This document shows, piece by piece, positions 1,914-18,608 of a stretch of 49,098 bases of DNA. How positions within the stretch are numbered: the stretch's first letter is position 1; each line of letters begins with the position of its first letter. A model generated the notes under the pieces. That model did not search any database. It was not told the origin of the DNA and worked only from the letters and a program-made list of their open reading frames with translations. Source of the stretch: Chloroflexota bacterium (GTDB lineage: Bacteria > Chloroflexota > Anaerolineae > Promineifilales > Promineifilaceae); the NCBI GenBank assembly GCA_022616275.1, contig JAKEFB010000242.1:1-49098 (forward strand). The letters run 5' to 3'. A program made the position numbers and the translations under genes.

Positions 1914-2861
1914 CTATGGCAATACCGTCACGTCATAGGGCAGCGCCGGCACAATCTCTCGGTTACTGCGATACTCCTGCACGTAACCAACGACCTGCAC
2001 CCTTGTGCCCGGCACGCCCAACGCCTGGTTGTTTTCAATGCGATCCAGGGTATTGTTCCAGATGAAAACCACGATTTCGCCGCTCTCGTCGGCGACAAAT
2101 AGCTTGGCCCCATTGCTCGTGCCTTCTACCCGGCCGATCTGCCCGGTAATGGTCACGCGCTGGCCCATATAATCGCCCAGGCTACCAATCGCCTGGGCCG
2201 GCGGCAGAGTACCAACGGCCGTCACCTTTATATCGCCGCCAAAGTCAGGCGCCACCTCCCACTCGCCTTCATACTGGCCTACCATACCGGTGGCCCGCAC
2301 CGTAGCCCCCAGATTGAGTGTCGGGGCATCCCAGCAGTCGTCATAGACGTTGCTCCACATCAACAACGTCACCTGGCCGCTGCCGTCGTCGAGGGTAAAT
2401 TTATAGCCGCTGGCAAAGCCGGCGGTGGCGACGACCTGCCCGGCAACCGTCACCTCGCTGCCCAGGTGGCCGGGGACTTCGCCAATGGGCAGGATGGGAA
2501 TGGCCGTTGGCGCTGGGATAGGCGTGCGAGTCGGCAAGGGTGTCTGCGTGGGGGGCGGCGTCGGAGAGTCGGCCGGCGTCGAGGTGGGGGTCGGTGACGG
2601 CGTTCTGGCCGTGGCGGTGGCTGTACTTATGGGTAAAGGTGTGTCCGTGGGCCCGGCCGTACCGGTAGCGGTCGGCGCCAGGGTGGCGCTCATCCCGGTT
2701 AGCCCGGCCGTGGCCACGGTCATCACGGCCGCCGCCACTATCGTCGGGACGGCCGGGGTAGGAGACGGTGGCGTTATCGTCGAGCAGGCCGGCAAGAGAC
2801 AGGCAAACCAAAATAGCCCAACCAGGATTACTTTCCGCAAATTTCTAGAAAACCACTGCAT
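1914..2861 (-). CDS. lipoprotein with Pro/Thr-rich linker and two OB-fold-like domains
   Basis: The 315-residue protein starts with a basic N-terminus, a hydrophobic stretch and the lipobox LPAC with Cys26, so it is probably exported and lipidated. Residues about 30-120 are a low-complexity Pro/Thr/Ser linker. Two similar modules follow, at about 125-215 and 220-310, each running G.EVTVAGQV...FTLDDGSGQVTL and then a buried Trp. This resembles OB-fold nucleic-acid or ligand-binding domains. An AGGAGGGACAGG ribosome site precedes the ATG. A promoter at 3032-3005 matching the brnTA promoter probably drives it. Its ligand is unknown. Confidence 0.75.
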   Translation of the reverse strand: MQWFSRNLRKVILVGLFWFACLLPACSTITPPSPTPAVPTIVAAAVMTVATAGLTGMSATLAPTATGTAGPTDTPLPISTATATARTPSPTPTSTPADSPTPPPTQTPLPTRTPIPAPTAIPILPIGEVPGHLGSEVTVAGQVVATAGFASGYKFTLDDGSGQVTLLMWSNVYDDCWDAPTLNLGATVRATGMVGQYEGEWEVAPDFGGDIKVTAVGTLPPAQAIGSLGDYMGQRVTITGQIGRVEGTSNGAKLFVADESGEIVVFIWNNTLDRIENNQALGVPGTRVQVVGYVQEYRSNREIVPALPYDVTVLP

Positions 2862-4126: not shown

Positions 4127-5422
4127 ATGGGGTATACTTGGCAGGCTATGGTTTTGACCCCAACAACTGGTTCACCCAGATTGAAATCAATCGCCATTCT
4201 TCATTTTACCGCTCCACCGGTCGTCGGCGGGGTGGAAAGCGTCCTGGGGCAGCACGCCCGGCTGCTGGCCGGCGCCGGGCACTCGGTTCGCGTTGTCGCC
4301 GGCCGGGGCGAGATGGTAGATGGCCGGATTCGTTTTGTCCACCTGCCCCTGGCCGACTCGCGCCACCCGGCCGTTTCGGCGGCCAAAGTACACCTGGATG
4401 CGGGCCAGATACCGGCCGGCTTTGAAACCCTGGTTAACTCCCTCGCCGGCGAGTTGGAACAGGCCCTGGCCGGCGTGGAGATTGTCCTGGCCCACAATGT
4501 CTGTTCGCTACACAAGAACCTGGCCCTGACGGCCGCGCTGCATCGCTTTTGCGCCCGGCCGGCCGGGCCACACCTCGTCGCCTGGCACCACGACCTGGCC
4601 TGGCTCATGCCGCAGTACCAACCGGAGCTTCATCTTGGCTGGCCCTGGGACCTGATTCGCCAGCCCTGGCCCGGCGTGGGCCAGCAGCACGTCGCCGTTT
4701 CCCAACTGCGGCAGCAGGAAGTGGCCCAGTTGTTCGGGTTGCCACTGGAGACGATTAGCGTTGTTCCTGCGGGCCTGGATGCGTCAACCTTTTTGAAATT
4801 GGAACCGGAGACCGTCGAATTAGTACGGCGCCTGCGCCTGTTAGAGGCAGACCCCTTGCTGTTGCTGCCGGTGCGGATCACCAGGCGCAAAAACATCGAG
4901 TTGGCCCTTCAGGTATTGGCTGCCCTGCGGCCTTTTTTCCCGCCGGCCGCACTGGTCGTTACTGGGCCACCCGGCCCACACAACGCCGCTAACCTCGACT
5001 ACTTTACCGAACTCAAAAAATTAGCGGCCGCTTTGGACCTGGCTTCCCCGAACACGCCGGCCGTCCACTTTCTGGCCGACGTGTTCCCTGGTTACGTACC
5101 CGACCCGGTGATCGGCGACCTGTACCGGCTGGCCGACGCCTTGCTGCTGCCCAGCCGGGAAGAGGGGTTCGGCATTCCTTTACTCGAAGCCGGGCTAAGG
5201 GGCTTACCCATCTTTTGCGCCGACATTCCATCCTTGCGGGAGATTGCCGGCCAGGCGGCCACCTATTTTAGCCCGGATGGTGAGCCGGCCAGCATTGCTG
5301 CCAGGATAGCCGACCGATTGGCAGCCGACCCTGTTTTTCAACTGCGCCGGCGGGTGCGGCGCAATTACACCTGGGAAGGAGTTTATGCCGACTGCATTGA
5401 ACCCCTCTTGGAGAGAGGATGA
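4127..5422 (+). CDS. GT4-family glycosyltransferase
   Basis: The product is a 431-residue retaining GT-B glycosyltransferase. The N-terminal half opens with a Rossmann strand and Gly-rich turn (IAILHFTAPPVVGGVESVLG) and has a conserved WHHDLAW segment. The C-terminal half has the phosphate-binding RITRRKNIELAL motif (near residues 250-262) and the EX7E nucleotide-sugar motif in PSREEGFGIPLLEA (about residues 345-358). GGGAG lies five bases before the ATG at 4127. It overlaps the next gene by ATGA and opens the solute-synthesis operon. Donor and acceptor cannot be read from sequence. It may extend or modify a glucosylglycerate-type solute. Confidence 0.85.
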   Translation: MGYTWQAMVLTPTTGSPRLKSIAILHFTAPPVVGGVESVLGQHARLLAGAGHSVRVVAGRGEMVDGRIRFVHLPLADSRHPAVSAAKVHLDAGQIPAGFETLVNSLAGELEQALAGVEIVLAHNVCSLHKNLALTAALHRFCARPAGPHLVAWHHDLAWLMPQYQPELHLGWPWDLIRQPWPGVGQQHVAVSQLRQQEVAQLFGLPLETISVVPAGLDASTFLKLEPETVELVRRLRLLEADPLLLLPVRITRRKNIELALQVLAALRPFFPPAALVVTGPPGPHNAANLDYFTELKKLAAALDLASPNTPAVHFLADVFPGYVPDPVIGDLYRLADALLLPSREEGFGIPLLEAGLRGLPIFCADIPSLREIAGQAATYFSPDGEPASIAARIADRLAADPVFQLRRRVRRNYTWEGVYADCIEPLLERG

Positions 5423-7269
5423 TGAATGACGTTTCACCAGGGTTGCTTCCCTACCAGCGCTACCCGGCTAAAGTTCTGATCCCCCTCATGTTGGACAGCG
5501 ATACTGAATCATTGCTCAGGCTGGCGCGCTGGCTATCGCAGTGGGAGCCGGTTTTAATGGTCGGCATTGTGCCCATCCCCGAAGGGCAAAATCTAAGCGC
5601 CGGCGCCACCGCCGCGCACCAGTTGCGTCGCCTGATCCAAGAAAACGTGGATCGGGTCAACCTGCGGGCCAAGGCCCGCATTCGGGTCTCCTACTCGCCC
5701 TGGGAGGAGGTCAAGGCCGTCCTCCGCGACGAACCGACTATTGAGCTACTGGTCTTAAACTGGCCTCAACAATTAAAAGTGCTCCGCTTGAGCGCGGCCG
5801 AAATCTTATCCCACCCCCCCCGCGACGTCATTGTCGTGCGGGGTCCCTTCCCGGAAAAACCAGCCAGCATCCTGGTCCCCATGCGCGGTGGGCCACACGC
5901 CGAACGCGCCCTTCGCCTGGCCCTGGAGCTATCCCGCTCCACCGGGGCGCGTGTCACGGCTTTACACCTGTTAGAGCCAGACCAGGAACAGCAGGACGAA
6001 GACACCTTCGCCGGTATGGCCCAGGTGTTGGCCGAACTGCCGGAGGTACGGCAGCAAACAATTACGACCGAGAACCAATCGGCGGTCATCCTGGAGAATT
6101 CTCGCGACTTCGACGTCGTCATCCTGGGCACGGCCGCCCATCCTACGAAATCAACCTTTTCCTTTGGCCTGACGATGGACGTCATGCTGGAACAGGCGCC
6201 GAGTGCGGTCATTGGGGCCAAGACCCGCCGGGTTGTCTTTCCGGCCGAGGGCAGTCGTTTTGGGGCCAGGGCCATTTCCGTCCTGGTAGACCAATGGTTC
6301 GCCGAAAACAGTTTCCAGGCCGACGAATTCGCCGACCTGGCAAGGCTGGTGGCCGTTAAAGAAGAGCGAGGCATTACCATCAGCCTGGCTCTGCCGGCGC
6401 TGAACGAAGAAAAGACCATAGGGCCTATTATCCAGGCCAGCCAGCAAGCTCTGATGGAAACGGCGCCCCTGCTCGACGAAATCGTGCTGATTGACTCCAA
6501 TTCCAGCGACCGCACGCGGGAGATAGCGGCCGACCTGGGTATCCCGGTCTACATTCACCAGGAAATCCTGCCCGAGCATGGCGCCCGCCAGGGTAAAGGT
6601 GAGGCGCTGTGGAAAAGCTTATACGTCACTAAAGGGGATATTATCATCTGGGTAGACACCGACGTCAGTAACTTCCACCCCCACTTTGTCTATGGCCTGA
6701 TCGGACCGTTTCTCCAGCGCCCGAACCTGATGTTTGTAAAAGGCTTTTACCACCGTCCCCTCCGGACCGGCGCAGGATTGGAGCCGGGGCGTGGCGGGCG
6801 AGTGACTGAATTGACCGCCCGGCCGCTCATTAACCTGTTTTACCCCGGCTTATCGGGCATTATTCAACCATTAGCCGGGGAGTATGGCGGCCGGCGAGAA
6901 GCGCTTGAGCAGGCTGTTTTTACCTCTGGCTACGGGGTGGAAACTTCCCTGCTGATTGAGATTTACGAAAAATTCAAGCTGGCTGCCATTGCCCAGGTTG
7001 ATTTGCTGGAGCGTATTCATCGCAACCAATCTTTAACCGAACTCAGTAAAATGTCCTTTGCCATTATCCAGACGGTGATTGGCAAACTGGAGAGCCGCTC
7101 CGGGCAGGCCATGCTGCAGGACGTGAACCGCACCATGAAAACGGTCCAACACGAGGCGGGCCAATATTACCTGGACGTGGAGGAAATTGCCGAACTGGAA
7201 CGGCCGCCGATGATCCAGATACCGGCTTACCGCCGCAAACGCGGGTTGCCCGAACTTGCTGAGGAATGA
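5419..7269 (+). CDS. gpgS: glucosyl-3-phosphoglycerate synthase with N-terminal double USP-like region
   Basis: Residues about 310-616 match GpgS, which transfers glucose from a nucleotide donor to 3-phosphoglycerate. They include LALPALNEEKTIG, the metal-binding VDTDVSN, VKGFYHRPL, GGRVTELTARPLI, QPLAGEYGGRR, and GYGVETSLLI, followed by IHRNQSL. Stand-alone GpgS is only about 320 residues, so the N-terminal 300 residues are extra. They form two repeats of a universal-stress-protein-like fold, the second with ILVPMRGGPHAERALRLALE and a VVILGTAAHPT segment. The start overlaps the upstream gene by ATGA, and the stop overlaps the phosphatase gene in the same way. The extra region may sense ATP or stress; that is inference. 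Confidence 0.88.
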   Translation: MMNDVSPGLLPYQRYPAKVLIPLMLDSDTESLLRLARWLSQWEPVLMVGIVPIPEGQNLSAGATAAHQLRRLIQENVDRVNLRAKARIRVSYSPWEEVKAVLRDEPTIELLVLNWPQQLKVLRLSAAEILSHPPRDVIVVRGPFPEKPASILVPMRGGPHAERALRLALELSRSTGARVTALHLLEPDQEQQDEDTFAGMAQVLAELPEVRQQTITTENQSAVILENSRDFDVVILGTAAHPTKSTFSFGLTMDVMLEQAPSAVIGAKTRRVVFPAEGSRFGARAISVLVDQWFAENSFQADEFADLARLVAVKEERGITISLALPALNEEKTIGPIIQASQQALMETAPLLDEIVLIDSNSSDRTREIAADLGIPVYIHQEILPEHGARQGKGEALWKSLYVTKGDIIIWVDTDVSNFHPHFVYGLIGPFLQRPNLMFVKGFYHRPLRTGAGLEPGRGGRVTELTARPLINLFYPGLSGIIQPLAGEYGGRREALEQAVFTSGYGVETSLLIEIYEKFKLAAIAQVDLLERIHRNQSLTELSKMSFAIIQTVIGKLESRSGQAMLQDVNRTMKTVQHEAGQYYLDVEEIAELERPPMIQIPAYRRKRGLPELAEE

Positions 7270-7838
7270 CAACTTTTTTATTGATCCGGCACGGCCAGAC
7301 AGCGTGGAACCTGGAGGGGCGCTACACCGGCCAGTCAGACGTGTCGCTAAACGAGACCGGCCGCAACCAGGCCCGCCAACTGGCTGCCCAGCTAAGAAAC
7401 AATCCTCCTGACGTTATTTATGCCTCTGACCTGGTTCGCGCCCGCGAAACGGCCGAGATTATCGCCGCCAGCCTTGCCTTGCCCGTCCACGCCGACCCCC
7501 GGCTGCGTGAAGTAGACCAGGGGGAATGGGAAGGGATGGTCTTTGCCGACATTATCGCCCGCTATGAGCGGGAATTTGCCGCCCGCAAGGCCGACCCCCT
7601 CAACGTCGCGCCGCCGGGCGGCGAAACGGTGGGCCAGGTGCACGCCCGGGTACAGGCGGCCGTGCATGACCTGGTGGCCCGGCACCCCGGTCGGCGAGTG
7701 GCACTCGTCGCTCACGGGATGGTTCTGGCGCTCATCCGGCTGCAGGCCTATGGCTACCCTATCGAACGGGTCTGGGAGCTGGTGCCGCCCAATGTCCAGG
7801 TCGAGGAAGTAGAAATAAGGGAGGGCCGGTCTGGGTAA
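7266..7838 (+). CDS. histidine phosphatase family protein, likely glucosyl-3-phosphoglycerate phosphatase
   Basis: The 190-residue protein has the phosphohistidine signature LLIRHGQTAWNLEGRYTGQS at the N-terminus, the second basic/acidic motif SDLVRARETAEIIA, the acid LREVDQGEWEG, and the second catalytic His in VALVAHGMVLALIR. This is a complete phosphoglycerate-mutase-like fold. Many such enzymes are generic, but a four-base overlap with gpgS points to a GpgP-like role, removing phosphate from glucosyl-3-phosphoglycerate to give glucosylglycerate. The specificity is inferred from context only. Confidence 0.82.
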   Translation: MTTFLLIRHGQTAWNLEGRYTGQSDVSLNETGRNQARQLAAQLRNNPPDVIYASDLVRARETAEIIAASLALPVHADPRLREVDQGEWEGMVFADIIARYEREFAARKADPLNVAPPGGETVGQVHARVQAAVHDLVARHPGRRVALVAHGMVLALIRLQAYGYPIERVWELVPPNVQVEEVEIREGRSG

Positions 7839-7875
7839 ACAGGCCGGCCTATCCCCCTGATGGAGAAAGTTGCCG

Positions 7876-9165
7876 ATGGCTCATTCACCCAATCCCCATT
7901 CGCTAAGAATCGGTTTTGTTTCCACCCGTTTTGCCGGCACAGACGGAGTCTCCCTGGAAACGGCCAAGTGGACGGAGGTCCTGGAAGCGTTGGGGCACAC
8001 CTGCTATTACTTCGCCGGGCTCTGTGACCGGCCGCCCCAACGCTCGATGGTGGTGCCTGAAGCCTTTTACCGCCATCCCGAAGTTTTTGAACGGCACAAC
8101 CGCTTTTTCAGCGGCGACCAGCGGACGGCCGACGACACGCGTTGGGTCCACCATTGGCGAGAGTTCTTCCGCGACCGGCTGGCCGAGTTCATTCAAGCGT
8201 TTCGGATTGACTTGCTAGTTCCCCAGAATATGCTGGCTATTCCCTTGCAAATTCCGCTGGGCCTGGCCCTGACCGAACTCATTGCCGAGACGAACTTTCC
8301 CACGGTGGCCCACCACCACGACTTTGCCTGGGAGCGCAAGCGGTTTCTGGTCAACGGCGTTGGCGATTATATCAGCGCTGCTTTCCCGCCCGACCTGGAC
8401 TCCATCAGCCACGTCGTCATCAACACGGCCGCCCGCCACCAACTGGCGCGCCGGCGAGGTGTCGCTTCAACCGTCATCCCCAACGTCATGGACTTTGACA
8501 GGGAGCCACCGCGCCTGGATGATTATGCGGCCGACGTACGCCAGGCCCTTGGCCTGGAAGCGGACGAATACTTCATTCTGCAGCCAACTCGGATCATCCA
8601 GCGCAAAGGCATTGAACACGCCGTCGAGCTGGTCCATCGCCTGGGGCTCAAGGCCAGCCTGGTGATTTCCCACGCCTCCGGGGATGAAGGCGACGAATAT
8701 GCCCAGCGGGTGCGCCAATACGCCCGGCTTCTAAACGTGAAAGTAATCTTTTGCGCCGACCGGGTCGGCGACGAGCGCGGCCGGACGGAAGACGGCCGTA
8801 AAATTTATCGCCTGTGGGACCTGTACCACCACGCCGACCTGGTGACTTATCCCTCCCTCTATGAGGGGTTCGGCAACGCTTTCCTGGAAACGGTCTGGAT
8901 GCGGCGGCCGATCGTCGTCAACAACTATTCCATTTACGCCACGGACATTCGCCCCAAGGGCTTTGCCGCCATTGAAATAGACGATTACGTCACCGACGGC
9001 AGCGTGGCCCAGGCGCGGAACGTGCTCCTGAACCCGGAACTGGGGCAGAAGATGGCTGTGCGGAACTTTGAGCTGGCCGCCCAATATTTCTCCTACAAAA
9101 TGCTACGCCGCAAGCTGCGCGGGGAGCTGGCCAATTTCTTTGGCGTGGCCGAGCCTGCTTCTTAG
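7876..9165 (+). CDS. GT4 glycosyltransferase, candidate mannosylglucosylglycerate synthase
   Basis: The chosen ATG at 7876 has GGAGA nine bases upstream; an in-frame TTG at 7870 is less likely. The 429-residue GT-B enzyme opens with LRIGFVSTRFAGTDGVSLET, has a VAHHHDFAWERKRF segment, the RIIQRKGIEHAVELV phosphate loop, and the EX7E motif in YPSLYEGFGNAFLETV. This N-terminus resembles a GT4 group found beside GpgS in solute clusters, including the non-phosphorylating mannosylglucosylglycerate synthases described from Petrotoga (from memory). Its position after gpgS and the phosphatase supports a role in extending glucosylglycerate. It ends 17 bases from the convergent phosphorylase gene. Confidence 0.75.
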   Translation: MAHSPNPHSLRIGFVSTRFAGTDGVSLETAKWTEVLEALGHTCYYFAGLCDRPPQRSMVVPEAFYRHPEVFERHNRFFSGDQRTADDTRWVHHWREFFRDRLAEFIQAFRIDLLVPQNMLAIPLQIPLGLALTELIAETNFPTVAHHHDFAWERKRFLVNGVGDYISAAFPPDLDSISHVVINTAARHQLARRRGVASTVIPNVMDFDREPPRLDDYAADVRQALGLEADEYFILQPTRIIQRKGIEHAVELVHRLGLKASLVISHASGDEGDEYAQRVRQYARLLNVKVIFCADRVGDERGRTEDGRKIYRLWDLYHHADLVTYPSLYEGFGNAFLETVWMRRPIVVNNYSIYATDIRPKGFAAIEIDDYVTDGSVAQARNVLLNPELGQKMAVRNFELAAQYFSYKMLRRKLRGELANFFGVAEPAS

Positions 9166-9182
9166 CTTGAAATCGAAGGCAT

Positions 9183-10952
9183 TCACGGTATTTGATGGGG
9201 TTTCAGCCAGCGGACCTGGTAGGGGGCAAGTATCAGTTCCAGCGTCCTCTTACCGGCCGGAGCATAGGTCGTGCCGCTGTTGAGATCGGTGAAGCTGGAT
9301 GGGCGCTCCGGTAGCCCATCCAGCTTCACCGCCACCTGGTGGGCCTGATTGGAAACGTTGTGCAGGCAGAACACCTGGTCCCGGCCGTCGGGCGAGGCGC
9401 GCCGGACGGCGAAAATAGCCTCGTGGCAAAAGAAGATTTCCTGCTCGCCATTGGGGTGGAAGGCCCGGCCGGCCCCGGCCGTCCGCTGTTGGAGCAATCG
9501 GCGATAGGGATAAAAGACGTGGCGGCGCAACGACTCTGGGTCGGCTAATTCTCGTTCCAACCGGCCGCGTTCCAACTTTTCCCGGTTAATCGTCCGGTAA
9601 CGGCCGGTCTGGGCCACCCCGTCCGGCCAGTTGCGAGAGCCAAACAGGCTATGAAAGTAGATGCCCGGCACGCCACGCAAAGCCAGCATGATGGCCTGGG
9701 CAGCCAGGAAGCGACTGGCTACCAGGGCTGTCCTTTCGCCGGCCGCTTCCGGGTCGCCCAACGCGTCCAGGTAGTTGGCATTTAACTCGTAGGCGCTGCG
9801 CGTGCCGTCGGGATTGTTCTTATAGGAAACGTAGCCGCCCAGGTCGCGGACGCGCTGGGCCATCGTCTCAATGTCGGCTTCACTCAAGATGCCCCGGGCC
9901 GGGGTGACGCCGATGCCGTCGTGCGAGGCCAGGAAGTTAAAGAAGCTGGCCTGGGCAGAAGGTAGATCCAGTCCCCTGGCCCAGGTGGCCAGGGTCGTCG
10001 CCTGGCCGCTGTGAAAAGCGTGGAGCACCAGGGGCGGGAGGGAAAAGTTGTAGACCATCTGGGCCTCGTTGGCCCCGTCGCCGAAGTAGGCGATGTTGTC
10101 CTGGTGGGGAACGTTCGTCTCGGTGATGAGGCTGGCGGTGGGAGCAACCTCGTCCAGCACGGCGCGAAACAGTTGGACAAGGCGGTGCGTTTGCGGCCGG
10201 TGGAGGCAGGCTGTCCCGCTTTCCTTCCACAAAAAGGCGATGGCGTCCAGGCGGATAAACTCGGCGCCTTGCTCGACGTAGAACAACAAAACGTCGAGAA
10301 TCTCCAGCAGCACGTCTGGGTTTTTGAAGTTTAAATCAACCTGGTCTGCGCTAAAGGTCGTCCAGACCAATTTCTCGCCGGCCGCCGTTTGAAAAGGCGT
10401 CAATAGCGGCAAGGCGCGCGGGCGAAAGACCTGGGAAAGGTTGGCGTCTCCAGGTGGGACGACGAAATACTCCTGGTAGCGCGGGTCGCCCGCCAGGAAG
10501 CGGCCAAACCAATCGCTCTGAACCGAAACGTGGTTGACTACGGCGTCAAACATGAGCCGGAAATTGCCGCCGATCCGGGCCACGTCGTCCCAACTGCCCA
10601 ACGCCGGGTTAACGGCCTTGTAGTCAATGACCGAGAAACCATCGTCCGACGAATAGGGAAAAAAGGGCAGGAGGTGAACGCCGGTCACCACCCCCGGCAG
10701 GGTCGTCTCCAGAAACTCCGCCAGCGAGCGCAGCGGCGGCTGGCCGGCCTCGTAGACCATGTCGCCATAGGTAATCAGAATGACGTCTCGCTCGTCAAAC
10801 CGCCCGGCCGGGGCCGTTTGGGAGGCCGGCCGGTGGGGGTTTCGCCGGCGAAAGCCGTCCAGCAGCGCCTGGAGCCTTGGCCAGAGGTGGCCGGCTGTTT
10901 CCGCGTCGTATAGATAAGACAGGTGGTCGCGGATGCGCGCTTGTGGGCTCAA
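9183..10952 (-). CDS. GH13_18 sugar phosphorylase, probable glucosylglycerate phosphorylase
   Basis: This 589-residue protein is a GH13 subfamily 18 enzyme (sucrose, glucosylglycerol and glucosylglycerate phosphorylases). Visible motifs are HLLPFFPYSSDDGFSVIDY, FDAVVNHVS, the nucleophile Asp236 in FIRLDAIAFLWKE, the acid/base Glu278 in ITETNVPH, and Asp345 in ASHDGIG. The TETNVPH and VWTTFSADQVDLNF segments look more like the glucosylglycerate-type branch (Escherichia coli YcjM) than classical sucrose phosphorylase. The start is TTG within a TTGA overlap with the upstream glycosidase gene and has GGAG eight bases before it. It would yield glucose-1-phosphate plus glycerate. Substrate choice is inferred from context. 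Confidence 0.82.
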   Translation of the reverse strand: MSPQARIRDHLSYLYDAETAGHLWPRLQALLDGFRRRNPHRPASQTAPAGRFDERDVILITYGDMVYEAGQPPLRSLAEFLETTLPGVVTGVHLLPFFPYSSDDGFSVIDYKAVNPALGSWDDVARIGGNFRLMFDAVVNHVSVQSDWFGRFLAGDPRYQEYFVVPPGDANLSQVFRPRALPLLTPFQTAAGEKLVWTTFSADQVDLNFKNPDVLLEILDVLLFYVEQGAEFIRLDAIAFLWKESGTACLHRPQTHRLVQLFRAVLDEVAPTASLITETNVPHQDNIAYFGDGANEAQMVYNFSLPPLVLHAFHSGQATTLATWARGLDLPSAQASFFNFLASHDGIGVTPARGILSEADIETMAQRVRDLGGYVSYKNNPDGTRSAYELNANYLDALGDPEAAGERTALVASRFLAAQAIMLALRGVPGIYFHSLFGSRNWPDGVAQTGRYRTINREKLERGRLERELADPESLRRHVFYPYRRLLQQRTAGAGRAFHPNGEQEIFFCHEAIFAVRRASPDGRDQVFCLHNVSNQAHQVAVKLDGLPERPSSFTDLNSGTTYAPAGKRTLELILAPYQVRWLKPHQIP

Positions 10953-12901
10953 ACCGATTTCTCCGAACCTCCGGCCGGTTGCCAGGCAGGGTGGGTCAGG
11001 GCCGCCAGCAGGGCCGCCCCGGGCCAGGCGAACCAGTGCCGGGAATGCACGGCGCCGTTGTGCGGGTCGCGCGCTTCGGGCAGCGCCCCATCCCGACAGG
11101 CGGTAGCTACCAGCCGTTCCAGCGCCCGGACAGCGCGCGCCGTATCGCCCAGCAGGCGGGCCGCGATTAGTTCCTGAACGTCACCCAGCGGCCAGGCGCC
11201 AGGGGTATGCACCGACCCCAGGCCACCCAGCGGGCCGTCGTAATACCCCCCTTTGTTGGCCGGGCTAAAGGCAAAGGCGATAGTCGCCTGCCAGACAGGA
11301 TGGTCGGCCGGACAAAAGCCCCACAATGGCGCCAGAACGAGGGGCAGATCGTTGGCGTCGTGATACAGGTAATGCCGGCCGCCGGCGTCGGTGGCGTAAG
11401 CAAAAAGGGAGTGGCCCTCACCGTTGGCGACAAAATAGCGCCACACGGCCGCCTCGATTTCCTGGCTCAGAGCAAGTAAATCCAGGCCAGTGAAAGGCCA
11501 ACGGCTATTTAACCGGGACAGTTGGCGCAGCGTGTGCCAGAGGAGAACGTGGCTGGAAAAGTGATAGGGGAAGGGTAGGGGATCGTCGGCCGGCGTTTCC
11601 TCCGTGGCGAAGAGGGGGGCGACGGCTGCCTGGCGAGATAGAATATGCTCTATCACCAGCGGCGCGTGGGGCAACAGCCGCCGCAACGTTGCCCGGTCGT
11701 CTGGGCAGCGGCCGGCATATTCGGCCAGCTCCAGCAGGGGGTAACATTGCTGGTCAAGCTGGAAGACGTGGTCCTTGGGCCGGCCGTTGGCCAGGTAAGC
11801 CCGCCCCCAGTAGCCGGCCGGGCGTTGCGCCGTTTCAAAAAGCCAGAGCAGGTGGCGGCGTCTCAGCCCCAGTTCGGCGCCATCCCCGGCCGTGCAGCCC
11901 TGGATGAGAAAATAGGCGTCCCGCGTCCAGCTTAGCGGCAGCAATTGGTGGTCGGTCAGCAGGCAGACACCCTCGCCAACGGGCACGGCGCAGCAGTCCC
12001 ACAAGTAGCTCTGGGCGCGTTGGGCCAGCGCCAGCGCAGGGGCAGGCCGGGGCAGCCGCTCCGCCAGCGCCAGCCAGCGCCTTTGCCTGGCTTCCAGGGC
12101 TGCCTCCAGATTGGCCTGGACGTCGCCGGCTGCCAGTTGTCCGGCCGTCGCCTGAGCCTCTTCCACTGTTTGGGCCAGGGTGTAGATAAAGGTCTGTGTT
12201 ACCGTTTGCCCCGGTTCGATCCGCAGCCGCCCCTGGGTGGCTACGGGCAGGGGGCCATTACCCTGGAGCTGCCAGGGCGACCCGGCCGGCAACCCCAGGA
12301 TGGCGGCCGCCACACCAACTTCGGGCGCGACGAGGGTCAGGGTCTGGCCATCGTAGTCAAGGCCCAGCGCCAGCGCCGGCAGGAGCAGGTCGCCCTTTTC
12401 GGTCAACTGGGTATAGCTGGCCCGGCTGAGGGCCAGGGGACCTTCCCAGCGGTACTCCCAGGTAAGTGGCCGGCGGCCGGTATTATGCCAGGACCACTGT
12501 TGCAAGGCGCCGGGCACAGGGCGGCCGTCCAGGTGCGGCGCCCAGGTAGTTACCTCGACTTCCAGCCCGCCGTCTGACCAGCGGCTGCGGGGAATGGCGC
12601 CAGCCAGCAGAAAAAGCGACGAGGGCGGCGCTTGTTCTATTGCTGCCGGGCGCAGGCCAAAAGTTAGCGCATCCCGGCTGGCCAGCGCCGCCCGGTAGGC
12701 CCGGACGGCCGCCTGGTCGTATCGCCGGTCATTAGGGAAGGGGGGCATAGCGCTCAGGGTTACGTAGCCTTGAACCGGATGGAAGCTGTTCAGGCTGAGC
12801 AGCCGGCCGTCTGGCGAGACGCTGCCGGCCAGAAGGCCGTTGCCAAAGTCGAGCGGCTTGTACGGATGCCCCCATTCAAGCTGGTGCTGAAATATATCCA
12901 C
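10949..12901 (-). CDS. (alpha/alpha)6-barrel glycoside hydrolase, distantly GH125-like
   Basis: The 650-residue protein has an N-terminal beta-rich domain (about 1-250) and a helical barrel. Barrel motifs are LLPLSWTRDAYFL (about 321-333), YWGRAYLANGRPKD, FQLDQQCYPLLEL (380-392), HDANDLPLVLAPLWGF (514-529) and GLGSVHTPGAWPLGD (560-574). The last three resemble the order and wording of GH125 exo-alpha-mannosidases (LDSLCYP, DDANVPSLL..PY.G, GIGSPHT...WP), but the GH125 YEVDG segment reads YATDA here, so the catalytic residues may differ. GH15 or GH63-type alpha-glucosidases are alternatives. GTG is the start, with GAAGG next to it. It lies between the importer genes and the phosphorylase, so it probably trims an imported oligosaccharide in the cytoplasm. 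Confidence 0.65.
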   Translation of the reverse strand: MDIFQHQLEWGHPYKPLDFGNGLLAGSVSPDGRLLSLNSFHPVQGYVTLSAMPPFPNDRRYDQAAVRAYRAALASRDALTFGLRPAAIEQAPPSSLFLLAGAIPRSRWSDGGLEVEVTTWAPHLDGRPVPGALQQWSWHNTGRRPLTWEYRWEGPLALSRASYTQLTEKGDLLLPALALGLDYDGQTLTLVAPEVGVAAAILGLPAGSPWQLQGNGPLPVATQGRLRIEPGQTVTQTFIYTLAQTVEEAQATAGQLAAGDVQANLEAALEARQRRWLALAERLPRPAPALALAQRAQSYLWDCCAVPVGEGVCLLTDHQLLPLSWTRDAYFLIQGCTAGDGAELGLRRRHLLWLFETAQRPAGYWGRAYLANGRPKDHVFQLDQQCYPLLELAEYAGRCPDDRATLRRLLPHAPLVIEHILSRQAAVAPLFATEETPADDPLPFPYHFSSHVLLWHTLRQLSRLNSRWPFTGLDLLALSQEIEAAVWRYFVANGEGHSLFAYATDAGGRHYLYHDANDLPLVLAPLWGFCPADHPVWQATIAFAFSPANKGGYYDGPLGGLGSVHTPGAWPLGDVQELIAARLLGDTARAVRALERLVATACRDGALPEARDPHNGAVHSRHWFAWPGAALLAALTHPAWQPAGGSEKSV

Positions 12902-12903
12902 CT

Positions 12904-13986
12904 TCAGACCAAGGCAAGACCGGTGTTCTTGTCCAACCAGCGGATCTTCTCCCGGCTGAGGCGCAGCCAGATCTCCTGCCCGGCTTCGAAAGTCGTGTCG
13001 GCGTGGGCGTTGACCTTCAACTGCTCATCGCCGACCTGGACTGTGAGCAGGTTATGCGACCCTAAGGGCTCGACGACGAGCACTCTGGCCGGGAGCGCGC
13101 CTTCAGCCGGGCCGGTCATCGCCTCGATATTTTCGGCCCGGATGCCCAACCAGAGGCCGGCCCCATTCATGCCTTGCAACCGGCCGGCCGTCTGGGTGTC
13201 CAGCGGGAAGGCCGTATTGCTGACCAACACAGCCGCCTTATCCCCGGCCGGCCGGGCAGTGAGAAAGTTCATGGGCGGGTTGCCGATGAAACTACCGATA
13301 AAATGGGCCGCCGGATTGTTGTAGACGGCAATGGGTGGATCGCACTGTAAGATTTTCCCGTGGCGCATGACGGCGATGCGATCTCCCATGCTGAGCGCCT
13401 CGACCTGGTCGTGGGTGACGTAAATGACCGTCGTATTGAGTTCATTCAATAACCGTTTCAGCTCGGCCCGCATTTCCAGGCGCAGCAGGGCATCCAGGTT
13501 GCTCAACGGCTCGTCCATGAGCAGCACTTGCGACTCGATGGCAATGGCCCGGGCCACGGCCACACGCTGGCGCTGGCCGCCGCTCAGTTGGGCCGGATAG
13601 CGCTTTAATAGATCTTCAATGTGGAGGAGTTCGGCCGCGGCCTGCACCCGTTTACGAATTTCCTCCTCTGGCCGGCGCTGCATCGTGAGACCAAAGCCGA
13701 TGTTGTCAAAGACGGTCATATGGGGAAAAACTGCGTAGCTTTGAAAGACCATTGAGATACCCCGCCGGCGCGGCGGCAAATTGGTCACGTCCCGGTCGCC
13801 AATGAAGATGCGCCCGCCGTCTACCTGCTCCAGGCCGGCAATCGAGCGCAGCAAGGTGGACTTGCCGCAGCCGCTTGGCCCCAGGAGGACCATAAACTCC
13901 CGGTCAGGGATGGTCAGGCTAACGTCGCCAACGGCCACCAGGTCGCCGAACACCTTACGGACCTGTTCCAGTCTTATTTCGGCCAT
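12904..13986 (-). CDS. sugar ABC transporter ATP-binding protein, MalK/UgpC type
   Basis: The 360-residue ATPase has Walker A GPSGCGKST, Q-loop VFQSYAVFPHMTV, signature LSGGQRQRVAVARA, Walker B VLLMDEPLSNLD, and the switch His in YVTHDQVEALSM. A C-terminal extension of about 120 residues carries the TOBE-like regulatory fold of carbohydrate importers (LGIRAENIEAM, VVEPLGSHNLLTVQV). ATG at 13986 is chosen because GAGGAG stands eight bases upstream; the frame extends a few codons further without support. It powers the two permeases encoded upstream. Confidence 0.92.
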   Translation of the reverse strand: MAEIRLEQVRKVFGDLVAVGDVSLTIPDREFMVLLGPSGCGKSTLLRSIAGLEQVDGGRIFIGDRDVTNLPPRRRGISMVFQSYAVFPHMTVFDNIGFGLTMQRRPEEEIRKRVQAAAELLHIEDLLKRYPAQLSGGQRQRVAVARAIAIESQVLLMDEPLSNLDALLRLEMRAELKRLLNELNTTVIYVTHDQVEALSMGDRIAVMRHGKILQCDPPIAVYNNPAAHFIGSFIGNPPMNFLTARPAGDKAAVLVSNTAFPLDTQTAGRLQGMNGAGLWLGIRAENIEAMTGPAEGALPARVLVVEPLGSHNLLTVQVGDEQLKVNAHADTTFEAGQEIWLRLSREKIRWLDKNTGLALV

Positions 13987-13999
13987 AACAAAGCTCCTC

Positions 14000-14068
14000 A
14001 AACCCCGCAGGTCTCCGAGGGCACGAATCGTGCCCCGGGTACATTTGGTGCCCCGACCTGCGGGGTTT
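14000..14068. repeat. nested hairpin repeat, copy 2 of the AAACCCCGCAGGTC family
   Basis: Outer arms aaaccccgcaggtc (14000-14013) and gacctgcggggttt (14055-14068) enclose an inner stem gggcacga / tcgtgccc. It fills the spacer between the second permease gene and the ATPase gene. The same outer arms, directly apposed, are at 1873-1905, so the inner part looks inserted. Confidence 0.8.
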
Positions 14069-14087
14069 CATACTCGGTCTGGTCAGA

Positions 14088-14909
14088 TTATTTCAATTTC
14101 ACGCCCCATAGGCTGAAGAGATAGCGACGCACGAAGAGCATGAACAGCAGCGCCGGAATCAGGATAAAGAAACCACCGGCAAATTTGAAAGGAATCGGAG
14201 ACTGGTTGAGCTGGACAACCAGCTTGGCGGGCAAGGTCGGGTTACGCACCGTCAAAATGGCGGCGGCAAAGACCTCGTTCCAGGAAAGAACAAAAGTAAA
14301 GATGGCCGACGCGGCCAGGCCGGGGAGGGCCAGGGGCAGGGCGACCCGCCGAAAAGCGCCGAAGCGGCTACAGCCCATCGTCATGGCGGCCTCCTCTAAT
14401 TCACTGGAGACCCCGACAAAAATGCTGCTGGTGACCAGGATAGTCGTCGGCAGGGCCATGGCCGTGTGCAACAAAGCCACCCCAAAGACCGTGTCGTCCA
14501 GCCCCCAACGGATGTAGGTAACGACCAGGGGAACAGCCAGAATGACAATTGGGAAAGCCCTTGTAGCCAGGATCATTAGCCGAAAGGAGTCCTGGCCACG
14601 GAAGACGTAACGGGCCAGGGCGTATCCGGCCGGCGCGCCGACAACCAGCGAGACGGCCAGCGTGAGAATAGCCACGACGATGCTATTCCTGACCGAGTCC
14701 AATACGCCGAAGGAACTCAGGAAAAAGCTGAGGGTTTCGGTTGAGATTTGCCGGGGAATAATTGGCTTGGGATAGTCATAGACCACGTCGCGTGGGCTGA
14801 AAGCCATAACCATAATCAGGTAAATGGGAATAAGAATGTACAGAGCGGGGATGAGGGCGGCCAGATAAAGCAGCCCCCGGCTGGTGAACCAGGTGCCAGA
14901 TTTCATCAT
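14088..14909 (-). CDS. sugar ABC transporter permease, MalG type
   Basis: This 273-residue inner-membrane protein has about six hydrophobic segments, beginning with LLYLAALIPALYILIPIYLI, and the EAA coupling loop ELEEAAMTMGCSRFGAFRRV followed by ALPLALPG. Its length and N-terminal FSPRD region are typical of MalG/UgpE-like subunits. It follows the other permease by 16 bases and is separated from the ATPase gene by the nested hairpin at 14000-14068, which could lower or protect downstream message. Confidence 0.9.
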   Translation of the reverse strand: MMKSGTWFTSRGLLYLAALIPALYILIPIYLIMVMAFSPRDVVYDYPKPIIPRQISTETLSFFLSSFGVLDSVRNSIVVAILTLAVSLVVGAPAGYALARYVFRGQDSFRLMILATRAFPIVILAVPLVVTYIRWGLDDTVFGVALLHTAMALPTTILVTSSIFVGVSSELEEAAMTMGCSRFGAFRRVALPLALPGLAASAIFTFVLSWNEVFAAAILTVRNPTLPAKLVVQLNQSPIPFKFAGGFFILIPALLFMLFVRRYLFSLWGVKLK

Positions 14910-14925
14910 CCCACCTCCCGGCGCC

Positions 14926-15846
14926 CTAGCGGGCTACACCCGACTGCACCCGCAAGGCGCGCAGATAGATCACGGCAATGCCGAGTGAAACGAGTAGAAT
15001 CAGCGTGGCATAGGCGGCGGCGACGTGTGGATTACGCAAGTTGGCGTACCAATCAAAGGCCTCCAGGGCCAGGACCGGCATTCCTCCACCGGTCAGGGCC
15101 ACCACCACGGCGAAGACCTGGAAGGCCAGGATGGTGCGCAGGATCAGGGCCACCTGAATGCTGGGGCGGAGCAGCGGCAGGGTCACCCGGCGCAATCGAG
15201 TAAAGTAGCCGGCGCCAAAGACTTCGGCCGCTTCGTCGTATTCTTTGGGAATACCCTGCAAGCCAGCCACCAGAATAACAAAGACGATCGAAGTCGCCCG
15301 CCAGACCTCGGCGATAATGACGGCAATGAGCGGCCACGACGTGCGAATGTTGAGAAAAATGAACGGCCGCTCCAGGAGTCCCAGGCCGGTGAGGATGGTG
15401 TTGAGGTAGCCGTTCTCGGTAAAGATAGACAGCCAGACAATGCCGGCCGCCAGGTCGGAGACGGCAATGGGCAGGGCGTAAAAGTAAATCAGCAGGCTCG
15501 AACCGCGCAAGCCGGCCGTCACCAGGAGGGCCATGACCAGGGCTAACACGAATTGCAATGGAATCACCGACACAATCAACAGGAACGTGTTGCGCAGCGC
15601 CTGACGGAAGGCCACATCGTTGACCATCCGCTCGACGTGAGCCAGGGTCCACTGCCCGTCGTCTGTCTGGAAAGCCAGCCCGATGGCCCTGAACATCGGC
15701 CAGGCGAAAAAGACCAGTAAGAAAATAGTCGAGGGCAATAATAACAGGTAAGGTTCCAACTTTCGCCGGCTCAGGCCCAATGGCCTGGTTGCCCGGCTCT
15801 TCCCTGGCGCTGCTTTATCCCCGATAGCAGGTTCAACCGTTTCCAC
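14926..15846 (-). CDS. sugar ABC transporter permease, MalF type
   Basis: The product is a six-helix permease with the EAA loop YDEAAEVFGAGYFTRLRRVT followed by LPLLRPS, and a leading hydrophobic segment LLLLPSTIFLLVFFAWPMF. GTG at 15846 is preferred (306 residues) because GGAGAG lies eight bases upstream. An upstream in-frame GTG at 15876 would put the palindrome at 15864-15918 inside the gene and lacks a ribosome site. It is the MalF-like partner of the downstream MalG-like protein. Confidence 0.88.
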   Translation of the reverse strand: METVEPAIGDKAAPGKSRATRPLGLSRRKLEPYLLLLPSTIFLLVFFAWPMFRAIGLAFQTDDGQWTLAHVERMVNDVAFRQALRNTFLLIVSVIPLQFVLALVMALLVTAGLRGSSLLIYFYALPIAVSDLAAGIVWLSIFTENGYLNTILTGLGLLERPFIFLNIRTSWPLIAVIIAEVWRATSIVFVILVAGLQGIPKEYDEAAEVFGAGYFTRLRRVTLPLLRPSIQVALILRTILAFQVFAVVVALTGGGMPVLALEAFDWYANLRNPHVAAAYATLILLVSLGIAVIYLRALRVQSGVAR

Positions 15847-15863
15847 CTTCGTCTCTCCTGTGG

Positions 15864-15918
15864 AGGTGACTGGCACTTTTCAAGAAGTGCTGGCACTTCC
15901 AGGAAGTGCCAGTCACCT
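15864..15918. repeat. palindromic element, GGTGACTG-CACTT family, copy 1
   Basis: Perfect 15-base arms AGGTGACTGGCACTT and AAGTGCCAGTCACCT enclose further internal GGCACTT/AAGTGCC repeats. It fills the spacer between the substrate-binding protein gene and the first permease gene. Two shorter relatives lie at 48534-48570 and 48886-48916. In binding-protein operons a hairpin here often raises the level of the upstream message. Confidence 0.85.
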
Positions 15919-15928
15919 GATTAGAAGA

Positions 15929-17359
15929 TTATTCCTGCAACTGGCAGGGACCTTCACTGGGTGGATCGGGCGGCCAGCAAGGCGCGCCCGTTTCGTCCAT
16001 CAGAGTCTGTAAATTAGCGCCTTCTTCGGCCAGCACAGTGGCAATATCTTCCTCGTTAATGATGATCCGGGTAAAGGCATCGCGGTAAATCTTGTTGATT
16101 TCACCACCGCGGTCACCCAGGCCCACCGGCAGCAGAGCCGGCAGGGCGTTGGGCGAGTTAGCCTGTTGGGCCACGGCCGCTGCTTCCAGGCGCACCCCGG
16201 CCGAAACGAAGCCGGGATACTCCACGTCAGTCACCGGGAAGAAGCCAATCTCGCGCAGGATATTCACCTGGACCTCGTCCTGCAACAGATAGCGGACCAT
16301 TTCCTGGGCGCCTTCCGGGTTGGGCGCGTTTGCCGGAATAGAGACGCCGACGATGACCGGCATGAAGCCCAATCCGGCCGGGCCGGTGGGCGAGGGGAGG
16401 GCCAGGAAGACGTCCGGCTGTTGCTCAAAGGCCTCCCTCAACCGGGCAGTGTGGTCCCAGGCTATCCATACCTCCTCGGACAATAGTTGCTCCTGCATGA
16501 AGGCATACGTCGAGGCCTGCGGGTTTACGTATTGCCACATATCGCGCACGAACTCCCACATGGCTACGGCTTCGTCGCTGCGAAAGCCGGTCACCATGCC
16601 GCCAGTATAAGAAGGATAGATAGAACCCTCCAGGAAACGGTGGAGGAGACCCTGGTCGCTGGCCGGAAAGCCAAGTTTGTTGTCGCCGGTGGCCTCGCTG
16701 ATATTCCTGGCCCAGTCTCGAACGTTCTCCCAGGTCAGCGCCGCCGTATCGGCGCCTTCCGGCAAGTATTCAAGGGCAACGTTATTAACGGCCAGGATGT
16801 ACGTGGCCTGCATTAAGGGGATATAGTATTGCGCGTCCGTGCCCAGCTTGCCCAGGTCCATGAAGGCACTGGGGATGTTGTGTTCGGCCAGGTCGGCCGT
16901 CATGTCCGAGAGGTCCATCATCGCATTCGCTTCTAACAACGTTGGGAAGGTACCGTGCAAAGAAATGACTACGTCCACCGAGCCCTCGCCTGCCTCTGCT
17001 TCGGCCAGGACCCGGTCCAGCAGGACAGGTTCCTCAACGCCGACAAACTCTGGCTGGCCGGGGAAGTCGGCCAGGACAATGCCGCGCATCCGTTCGGCCT
17101 CTTCAACCGGGACCGCCTGGGTAGACAGGATAAGGACGTTACCAAAGTCCACGACCTCCGGCGCGACTTCGACGACGCGGGTAACCTCAATCTGCTCGGT
17201 GACCGACTCTCCCTCGACAATGCGGGTAACCTCAATCTGCTCGGTGACGACTTCTGTTTCGGTAACGACGCGGGTAACCTCAACGACCTCAGGCTGGCAG
17301 GCGCTCAACAGTAAAACAGATAGTGCCAGAAGGGCTATGTAAATCAAGGTCTTCTTCAT
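15929..17359 (-). CDS. sugar ABC transporter substrate-binding lipoprotein
   Basis: The 476-residue protein has a signal peptide with a LLSAC lipobox (Cys21), then a tether of repeated EVTRVVTETEVVTEQI-type units (residues about 28-68), and then a family 1 extracellular solute-binding fold. The binding fold shows VDVVISLHGTFPTL, DLSDM, a WDHTARLREAF segment and VGVSIPANAPNPEGAQEMV. It would sit outside the cell membrane and deliver a sugar or sugar-acid to the permeases. The tether is encoded by near-identical DNA units at 17175-17285. GGAGG precedes the ATG. Confidence 0.9.
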   Translation of the reverse strand: MKKTLIYIALLALSVLLLSACQPEVVEVTRVVTETEVVTEQIEVTRIVEGESVTEQIEVTRVVEVAPEVVDFGNVLILSTQAVPVEEAERMRGIVLADFPGQPEFVGVEEPVLLDRVLAEAEAGEGSVDVVISLHGTFPTLLEANAMMDLSDMTADLAEHNIPSAFMDLGKLGTDAQYYIPLMQATYILAVNNVALEYLPEGADTAALTWENVRDWARNISEATGDNKLGFPASDQGLLHRFLEGSIYPSYTGGMVTGFRSDEAVAMWEFVRDMWQYVNPQASTYAFMQEQLLSEEVWIAWDHTARLREAFEQQPDVFLALPSPTGPAGLGFMPVIVGVSIPANAPNPEGAQEMVRYLLQDEVQVNILREIGFFPVTDVEYPGFVSAGVRLEAAAVAQQANSPNALPALLPVGLGDRGGEINKIYRDAFTRIIINEEDIATVLAEEGANLQTLMDETGAPCWPPDPPSEGPCQLQE

Positions 17360-17391
17360 TTTGTTGTCAGCCTCCTCTTAACATAGGTAAA

Positions 17392-18468
17392 TCACGTAGT
17401 TTTCTTCAACTCTTGACCAACATCAATCTCATAGAACCTCCTCTCTGGCGCCAGCGGCGAGCCGCTTGATTCGCGAACGATAAGTCTGGGGATCAGTAAG
17501 ACGTGGGAATCGTCCAGGGGCCGTCCGTTCAACAGGTCAATCAGCATGGTACACGTCTGGCGGCCGATCTCGTAAATAGGCTGGTGCAGGGTCGTCAGCG
17601 GCGGGTGGGAATTAGCCGCCGGGGGAATGTCGTCAAAACCGCCGATGGCCACGTCCCGGCCGATGTGAAGCCCGTGCTGCTGAAGCCGGTTCATCGCCCC
17701 GATGGCCATCAGATCATTGCCGCCGATGATCGCCGTCGGCCGGGGGTCGAGGGCCAGGAGACGTTCAACGACTTCCGCTCCCCCGCGCTGCGTCAGGTCG
17801 CCCTCCACTATCCACTCCGGCTGCACGGGGTAGTTGTTAGCGGCCATGGCCTGGCGGTAGCCTTGCAGGCGATAATAGCCGAACATCAGGCCGGCCGGCG
17901 GGGCAATAAAGCCGATACGGCGGTGGCCCAGGTCAATAAAGTGCTGGACCAACAGGCGCATACCGGCCGCGCCATCCTCGTCTACGTACGGGTATTCCAG
18001 GTCGTCTCTACTGCGGCCGAAGGCGACGAAGGGGAAATTGTGCTGCTTGAGCGTCTGCAGGCGGCTGTCGTGTTGGCGAGTGCGGACGACGATTAGCCCA
18101 TCCACCCAGCCGCCCTGCGCGGCGCGGAGGTAAGCTTGCCGTTCCCCTTCGCCGTCGGGCGCATGGGTGGACACCAGCAGGTCGTAGTCGTGGCTATTGG
18201 CCTCGTTGCCAACGCCGGCTAAGAATTCGCTGAAGAAGGGGTCTGAGAAGCGGGGGCCGTAGGTCGGCAGGATAAAGCCTAGCGTGTCCGTCCGTTGCTT
18301 TTGGAGGCGGCGAGCGACGAGGTTAGGCTGGTAACCTAATGCGGCGGCCACACTTTGGATGCGCTGGCGTGTTTCTTCGGCCACATCGGCGTAACCGGCT
18401 AACGCCCGTGAAGCCGTAGTCAGAGACACGCCAGCCTGGCGGGCTACCTCCCGTAAGGTAACGGCCAT
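17392..18468 (-). CDS. LacI-family transcriptional regulator of the solute-uptake operon
   Basis: The 358-residue repressor begins VTLREVARQAGVSLTTASRA, the LacI helix-turn-helix, followed by the hinge LGYQPNLVARRLQ. The effector domain carries LGFILPTYGPRFSDPFFSEF and GRDVAIGGFDDIP. It is the first gene of the minus-strand operon, 32 bases before the binding-protein gene, and behind a promoter covered by two LacI-type palindromes. Autoregulation and induction by the imported solute or a breakdown product are therefore likely. Confidence 0.93.
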   Translation of the reverse strand: MAVTLREVARQAGVSLTTASRALAGYADVAEETRQRIQSVAAALGYQPNLVARRLQKQRTDTLGFILPTYGPRFSDPFFSEFLAGVGNEANSHDYDLLVSTHAPDGEGERQAYLRAAQGGWVDGLIVVRTRQHDSRLQTLKQHNFPFVAFGRSRDDLEYPYVDEDGAAGMRLLVQHFIDLGHRRIGFIAPPAGLMFGYYRLQGYRQAMAANNYPVQPEWIVEGDLTQRGGAEVVERLLALDPRPTAIIGGNDLMAIGAMNRLQQHGLHIGRDVAIGGFDDIPPAANSHPPLTTLHQPIYEIGRQTCTMLIDLLNGRPLDDSHVLLIPRLIVRESSGSPLAPERRFYEIDVGQELKKTT

Positions 18469-18553: not shown

Positions 18554-18571
18554 ATCCGAAACGTTTCGGAT
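18554..18571. promoter_or_regulatory. LacI-type operator O1
   Basis: This is a perfect 18-base palindrome, atccgaaac / gtttcggat, with the central CG typical of LacI/GalR operators. It covers the predicted transcription start of the minus-strand lacI promoter (about 18573). Its centre is 32 bases, about three helical turns, from O2. Confidence 0.9.
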
Positions 18572-18579
18572 ACAATTTC

Positions 18580-18608
18580 AGTCTAATCCAAAACGTTTCG
18601 GATGTCAA
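18580..18608 (-). promoter_or_regulatory. promoter of the lacI/uptake/breakdown operon
   Basis: On the minus strand TTGACA (18608-18603), a 17-base spacer, and TAGACT (18585-18580) form a good sigma-70 promoter. The spacer is operator O2, and the predicted start lies at the edge of O1. Confidence 0.8.
18586..18603. promoter_or_regulatory. LacI-type operator O2
   Basis: The sequence atccaaaacgtttcggat matches O1 except for one base. It fills the space between the -35 and -10 boxes of the minus-strand promoter, so bound repressor would block RNA polymerase directly. Confidence 0.88.

Follow-up and report, generated by a model that had tools for sequence, protein, structure and literature searches.

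Which solute is served by two operons that converge, with stop codons 17 bp apart, on contig JAKEFB010000242.1 of a Chloroflexota bacterium is the question addressed here (49,098 bp, hereafter the window; contig C159 of a genome of 8.53 Mb in 309 contigs, completeness 98, contamination 5.5). An initial annotation had read the plus-strand operon as making, and the minus-strand operon as salvaging, a glucosylglycerate-type solute; all eleven genes were found in their places, their families held on Pfam and NCBIfam profiles, and in a Pfam scan of ten of the proteins each passed at least one gathering score. In our view the odds are about even that the genes on the minus strand together make up a single salvage operon under LacI repression, which would serve an imported glucosylglycerate glycoside, most probably mannosylglucosylglycerate (MGG).

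A probable glucosylglycerate phosphorylase and a GH125-like glycosidase

The best-founded result of the analysis is the assignment, from sequence, of the minus-strand gene at 9183–10952 to a GH13_18 glucosylglycerate phosphorylase (GGaP). According to a passage of a review (PMC7178133), GGaP is distinguished from sucrose phosphorylase (SP) by a (T/S)ETN motif at strand beta-5 and a Glu residue in loop A. The window protein has TETN at residues 277–280 and SAYELN, with Glu389, in loop A. Indeed, (T/S)ETN was present in all 29 GGaP-side sequences compared, including the window protein, E. coli YcjM and a Meiothermus protein (from a congener of the characterised source named in that review passage), whereas the SP side had PEIH in three of four sequences and VEIH in the fourth (Agrobacterium); likewise, loop A read YE in 29/29 sequences of the former and YQ in 4/4 of the latter. 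A tree of 33 rows, built by a quick method, split the 29 from the four with a support of 100; YcjM is the sole characterised enzyme among the 29 rows, sucrose-6-phosphate and glucosylglycerol phosphorylases stood outside the tree, and G150_second and G310_second (wrong reading frames) and G314_second (a long-branch SP-like protein) were left out. PDB chains of sucrose-6-phosphate and glucosylglycerol phosphorylases matched the window protein less well than SP chains, amylosucrase and trehalose synthase were set aside on weaker PDB matches, and SP was ruled out by motif and tree. Thus, the point that the initial annotation had made decisive for its glucosylglycerate-like phosphorylase, namely its placement relative to SP, came out on the side of YcjM. 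With this E. coli enzyme (GH13_18, EC 2.4.1.352) the window GGaP has in common the TETN motif, the loop-A Glu and the tree position, but YcjM has a kojibiose phosphorylase and dehydrogenases in its neighbourhood, whereas the window GGaP shares its operon with a GH125-like enzyme.

The latter (10949–12901, minus strand; hereafter GH125L) is a glycosidase of 650 residues, predicted to combine a GH15-like N-terminal beta domain with a GH125-type (alpha/alpha)6 barrel. PF06824 matched it with 72.4 bits (gathering score, 23.4), covering profile positions 212–405 of 414. In a fold comparison by VIA-align 2, re-aligning Foldseek candidates, the model showed the GH125 barrel fold with a Z of 36 and an identity of 18, as against 31.4 and 11 for GH15, while the beta-rich residues 1–260 were covered by GH15 chains. 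GH15 was rejected as its family for the lower Z and lower identity, although the N-terminal domain is common to both. Moreover, Asp439 and Glu609 align with the conserved Asp and Glu of GH125 and are invariant in 20 sequences; we take these positions to be catalytic, like D220 and E393 of CpGH125. By sequence and modelled fold, the (alpha/alpha)6 glycosidase of the initial annotation is to be placed in the GH125 neighbourhood. CpGH125 and SpGH125, both exo-alpha-mannosidases, share with GH125L the barrel fold, the Pfam domain and the conserved Asp/Glu positions; GH125 chains in the PDB are, however, about 430 residues long and have no GH15-type N-terminal domain, and their identity to GH125L is 18–20%. 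In the model, GH125L appears to be built differently from its known relatives, as a GH125 barrel joined to a GH15-like N-terminal domain.

Regulation and import in the proposed salvage operon

The first gene of the operon (17392–18468, minus strand) encodes a LacI-family repressor (PF00356, PF13377), and a sigma-70-like promoter, TTGACA-17-TAGACT, lies at 18580–18608 on the same strand. Operator 1, ATCCAAAACGTTTCGGAT (18586–18603), is an inverted repeat inside the promoter spacer with one mismatch to operator 2, ATCCGAAACGTTTCGGAT (18554–18571), a perfect palindrome 32 bp from it. At up to three mismatches the window contains these two sites alone, and shuffled sequences gave a mean of 0.22, one of 100 reaching two. 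Furthermore, a CG-centred palindromic operator was found at all four orthologous LacI loci (L044, L050/L114 from one genome, L207 and L218; 47–55% identity), and no other LacI ortholog of that similarity occurs among the loci, which had been collected before the operator was defined. TTGACA directly precedes the operator in L044, L050 and L218, as in the window, but not in L207. The operator-headed units of L050/L114, L207 and L218 contain GGaP, and those of L114 and L207 also hold a relative of GT4b, the second GT4 glycosyltransferase of the plus-strand operon. These results suggest that the salvage operon is a LacI-type repression unit with putative operators conserved at its orthologs. Since the window scan found no operator site at the synthesis operon, the latter is probably outside the control of this repressor. 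A third CCRAAACGTTTYGG site, elsewhere in the window genome at C277:27390, was rejected as a regulon member, the reversed control pattern giving 2 per strand against 3.

Between the repressor and GH125L, the minus strand encodes an ABC importer: a sugar-type solute-binding protein with a lipoprotein-like N-terminus (MKK..LLLSAC) (15929–17359; PF01547, 66 bits), a UgpA/MalF-like permease (14926–15876; scanned with NCBIfam only, NF007852 (UgpA), 73 bits, under the cut-off), a MalG-like permease (14088–14909; PF00528, 69 bits) and a MalK/UgpC-type ATPase (12904–14001, start codon provisional; ABC_tran and TOBE_2, with NF008653 at 401 bits for a cut-off of 432). Among the named loci, these proteins are closest (48–60%) to those of L037, L044, L048 and L050, which are Chloroflexi, Anaerolineae or Aggregatilineales records; at eight Bacillota loci the permeases are 21–37% alike, and no BLAST match was obtained for the binding protein.

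Putative synthesis genes on the plus strand

The plus-strand operon opens with GT4a (4127–5422; PF00534, 70 bits), a GT4 glycosyltransferase and usual neighbour of glucosyl-3-phosphoglycerate synthase (GpgS), which it adjoins in 19/19 and 5/11 GpgS-bearing loci of two sets, counts favoured by the picking of these loci for GGaP, GT4b or GpgS. GpgS itself (5419–7269) is a GT81-type enzyme fused behind a universal-stress-protein (USP) region (PF00582 at residues 151–213). The 'unmistakable' GpgS of the initial annotation passed NF010496 (359.1 bits, equivalog cut-off 262, residues 290–601), to which the fusion is to be added; as to its donor sugar it is less than unmistakable, because the best PDB match (3f1y, 249 bits; the GpgS chain, 212) was deposited as a mannosyl-3-phosphoglycerate synthase, and we take 3f1y to be the dual-specific Rubrobacter enzyme. 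GpgS was matched in 87 of 301 phylum genomes at a threshold of 1e-40. For 82 of these genomes the top match begins no later than query residue 45, an indication that the USP-GpgS fusion is the usual form in the phylum; open-licence literature yielded no paper pairing the USP and GpgS terms. The histidine phosphatase that follows (7266–7838; PF00300, 212.6 bits) is presumed to be glucosyl-3-phosphoglycerate phosphatase (GpgP). Its family held; among PDB chains, GpgP matched it with 78 bits and other phosphatases with up to 100.

GT4b (7876–9165, plus strand; ATG at 7876, the listed open reading frame (ORF) opening at TTG 7870) had been annotated as adding mannose or glucose in the manner of MggS. 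It matches the MggS profile NF041101 over the full length, but with 229.1 bits for a cut-off of 640, so that it was rejected as a true MggS and is described here as MggS-related. Relatives of GT4b reach 369 and 441 bits; the cut-off was passed by none of the 301 phylum genomes and, among 14 control genomes, by Thermotoga maritima only. A PDB sequence search gave no match at 0.001, and the GT-B-type model (pLDDT 93) is closest mainly to GT4s that use nucleotide sugars, for example BshA and sucrose-phosphate synthase. In the 301-genome draw, GT4b (31 genomes) and GGaP (37) co-occur in 25 (Fisher 5e-22, only a guide as the genomes are related), lying within 2 kb of each other in 19 of these, and GGaP-GT4-GT4-GpgS clusters are common in the phylum. 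The association of these genes is not due to chance, since GGaP, both GT4 genes and GpgS adjoin in many related genomes. In a Vibrio cluster (L251, also with PGM/PMM, an importer and a ROK/MarR regulator), a 533-residue ORF with no Pfam match (8396–9994) directly precedes a GT4b relative.

Trehalose phosphorylase is a phosphorylase within GT4, and GT4b could similarly be a retaining GT4-family phosphorylase that removes a sugar from the imported solute before GGaP acts. Its occurrence in GGaP importer clusters of genomes with no GpgS detected (L038, L040 and L114 at 1e-10, L207 at 1e-40) would fit such a role, which we nevertheless hold to be very improbable: the window GT4b belongs to a 13-row clade (support 100), apart from the clades holding those four loci, whose own members are found in GpgS clusters, next to GGaP or singly; moreover, GT4b accompanies GpgS with GGaP absent in 5 of 31 genomes, and the nearest folds, listed above, are mainly nucleotide-sugar transferases. 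A further ORF of the window (1914–2861, minus strand) is lipoprotein-like, with a long Thr/Pro-rich stretch.

The probable solute of the proposed salvage operon

The genes found with GH125L and GGaP elsewhere bear on the solute. A single strand carries GGaP, GT4b, a glycerate kinase, a binding protein, two permeases, an ATPase and GH125L in both Bacillus sp. FJAT-27225 and P. bovis DE0126, the kinase scoring 458 and 472 bits, respectively. G315 and G314 likewise have a glycerate kinase next to GpgS, and in L044 GH125L is followed by a 2-hydroxyacid dehydrogenase and a hydroxypyruvate-isomerase-like protein, both under their equivalog cut-offs.

In the 301 genomes, GH125L gave 21 matches at 0.001, of which six were counted (G000, G150, G088, G163, G299 and a fragment in G250; 43–57%, or own) and 15, matching the query partly at 27–39%, were left out; a GTDB contig scan with the single GH125L, reaching close relatives only, gave 17 loci, L051 being dropped with 34 residues matched. 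Besides the window, both permease genes stand in the GH125L gene run at 17 of 21 loci, the others being three contigs under 5 kb and L046, which has neither. Among the 22 GH125L genomes, a GGaP ortholog (46–55%; own, 100%) is present in 10, with the SP-like G302 and G314 (33–34%) excluded; GpgS (E 1e-10) in 11; and GT4b at 37% or above in eight, with G163 and G299 (28–30%) excluded. The window is the only one of the 11 GpgS-bearing genomes in which the GH125L operon faces GpgS, the two being about 470 kb apart in G088, 68 kb apart in G150 and on different contigs, some too short to tell, in the other eight. Some neighbours are different: a carbon-nitrogen hydrolase lies between permease and GH125L in two Bacillota clusters (L036, 9100–9918; L041, 9118–9951), where the substrate is perhaps a glyceramide glycoside or other amide; a ROK-family protein directly follows GH125L in L042 (11791–12786) and L045 (11807–12757), which would fit the release of a hexose by GH125L; and an 869-residue ORF with no Pfam match between the ABC permeases and GGaP of G150 (L098, 11830–14436) could be another glycosidase or a wrong frame.

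Several of these observations weigh against MGG salvage. A GGaP ortholog is missing from 12 of the 22 genomes, so that there is no general tie between GH125L and glucosylglycerate, and other sugars may serve as substrates there; in the 301-genome draw GH125L occurs with GGaP in three of six genomes (p 0.03) and with GT4b in two of six (p 0.12), while GT4b tracks GGaP rather than GH125L (six of the 10 GH125L genomes with GGaP, two of the 12 without). The GGaP of G150 has its own importer, apart from that of GH125L. The MggS score of GT4b, far under its cut-off, points the same way, and a profile search of the window genome found no PF02595 glycerate kinase. Finally, the characterised GH125 enzymes cleave alpha-1,6 links, and the linkage in MGG is alpha-1,2.

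As an alternative, GH125L and the importer could serve an unrelated alpha-mannoside or alpha-glucoside oligosaccharide, with GGaP placed in the operon for no other reason than that both supply hexoses to metabolism. A GGaP ortholog is absent from six of the eight Bacillota genomes with GH125L, and GpgS at E 1e-10 from all eight; four of those six clusters have a ROK kinase or carbon-nitrogen hydrolase beside GH125L; and the pneumococcus, as described in PMC5215778, uses GH125, an importer and a ROK kinase for N-glycans. We regard this explanation as rather improbable for the window, given that two GH125L/GGaP clusters include a glycerate kinase and that the orthologous LacI/operator units L207 and L218 hold GGaP and no GH125L, which ties the regulon to GGaP; one such unit, L044, contains no GGaP.

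Somewhat better placed, though still unlikely, is a parallel scheme with two simple solutes entering through the importer: mannosylglycerate, which GH125L would hydrolyse into mannose plus glycerate, and glucosylglycerate, which GGaP would phosphorolyse. GpgS, possibly dual like the Rubrobacter enzyme, may make both. A Meiothermus taiwanensis plasmid operon (LacI, binding protein, permeases, ATPase, glycosidase, GGaP) matches the window in order and in gene kinds save one, the position of GH125L being occupied by an enzyme that resembles glucosylglycerate hydrolase (NF047898, 403 bits; cut-off 550). On a plasmid of Vibrio sp. THAF191d (L252, 3886–9695), PTS EIIBC, a GH38 mannosidase and GGaP follow one another and form a PTS-type counterpart of the window operon; the GH38 protein, which precedes GGaP, is 34% identical to a protein annotated mngB, mannosylglycerate hydrolase. 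MGH1-like domains also lie beside GGaP or GpgS in L106, L108, L201, L213 and L217. Such variety of glycosidases fits the two-solute scheme also, as does the deposition of 3f1y as a mannosyl-3-phosphoglycerate synthase. On the other hand, an MggS-like GT4 stands with GH125L and GGaP in one operator-headed run (L050/L114) and shares a cluster with them in L038 and L040, which points to a three-unit solute.

MGG salvage, the reading preferred here, would proceed serially. Upon binding an inducer, the repressor would leave the two CGAAACGTTTCG-type operators; the ABC importer would take up the solute; and cytoplasmic GH125L would hydrolyse the outer alpha-mannosyl unit by inversion, Asp439 serving as acid and Glu609 as base by analogy with GH125, its sugar and linkage being those that the context suggests. 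GGaP would then split glucosylglycerate, and the glycerate may enter glycolysis through the one DUF4147-family protein encoded elsewhere in the genome, which we take to be a glycerate kinase. On the plus strand, GpgS and the histidine phosphatase would produce glucosylglycerate, which one or both GT4 enzymes would extend to the same solute class. Removal of mannose followed by cleavage of glucosylglycerate fits the GH125 fold, the identity of GGaP, and the glycerate kinase and MggS-like gene in sister clusters. Enzymes, solute and substrate were assigned from genes, models and context, and the substrate in particular is one that we infer. Collectively, the GH125 fold, the glycerate kinase of two sister clusters and the conserved operators strengthen the salvage half of the cycle initially annotated, whereas the GpgS donor, the second GT4 and the phosphatase of its synthesis half are weaker than had been claimed.

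The side-by-side occurrence of synthesis and salvage, which the initial annotation thought notable, is so only in part: GGaP-GT4-GT4-GpgS clusters are common in the phylum, and a review (PMC7178133) already describes GGaP in the company of GpgS, of the phosphatase that goes with GpgS, or of a glycerate kinase. MGG producers such as Petrotoga and Rhodopirellula baltica accumulate the solute class proposed for the window, with no salvage operon reported in the excerpt of PMC3694870. Open-licence literature gave no MGG breakdown enzyme among the matches listed and no paper joining GH125 and glucosylglycerate, and open-licence papers on glucosylglycerate and mannosidase show no such pathway in their titles and abstract openings. 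Tentatively, and at less than even odds, the window may encode a dedicated MGG breakdown pathway in the form of a LacI regulon, with GH125L and its glucoamylase-type N-terminal domain as a new MGG hydrolase feeding GGaP, in a bacterium that would also make MGG from a stress-protein-fused GpgS. To our knowledge, no dedicated pathway for MGG breakdown has been described earlier.

According to passages of the same review (PMC7178133), the metabolic function of GGaP is without experimental confirmation, and many organisms with a putative GGaP gene are not believed to accumulate glucosylglycerate. That function becomes testable with an operon that combines a repressor and its operators with an importer, a glycosidase and GGaP, as it predicts uptake, inducer and substrate. 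GH125L would be a candidate glycosidase for MGG, and the USP-GpgS fusion could tie the synthesis of the solute to stress sensing.
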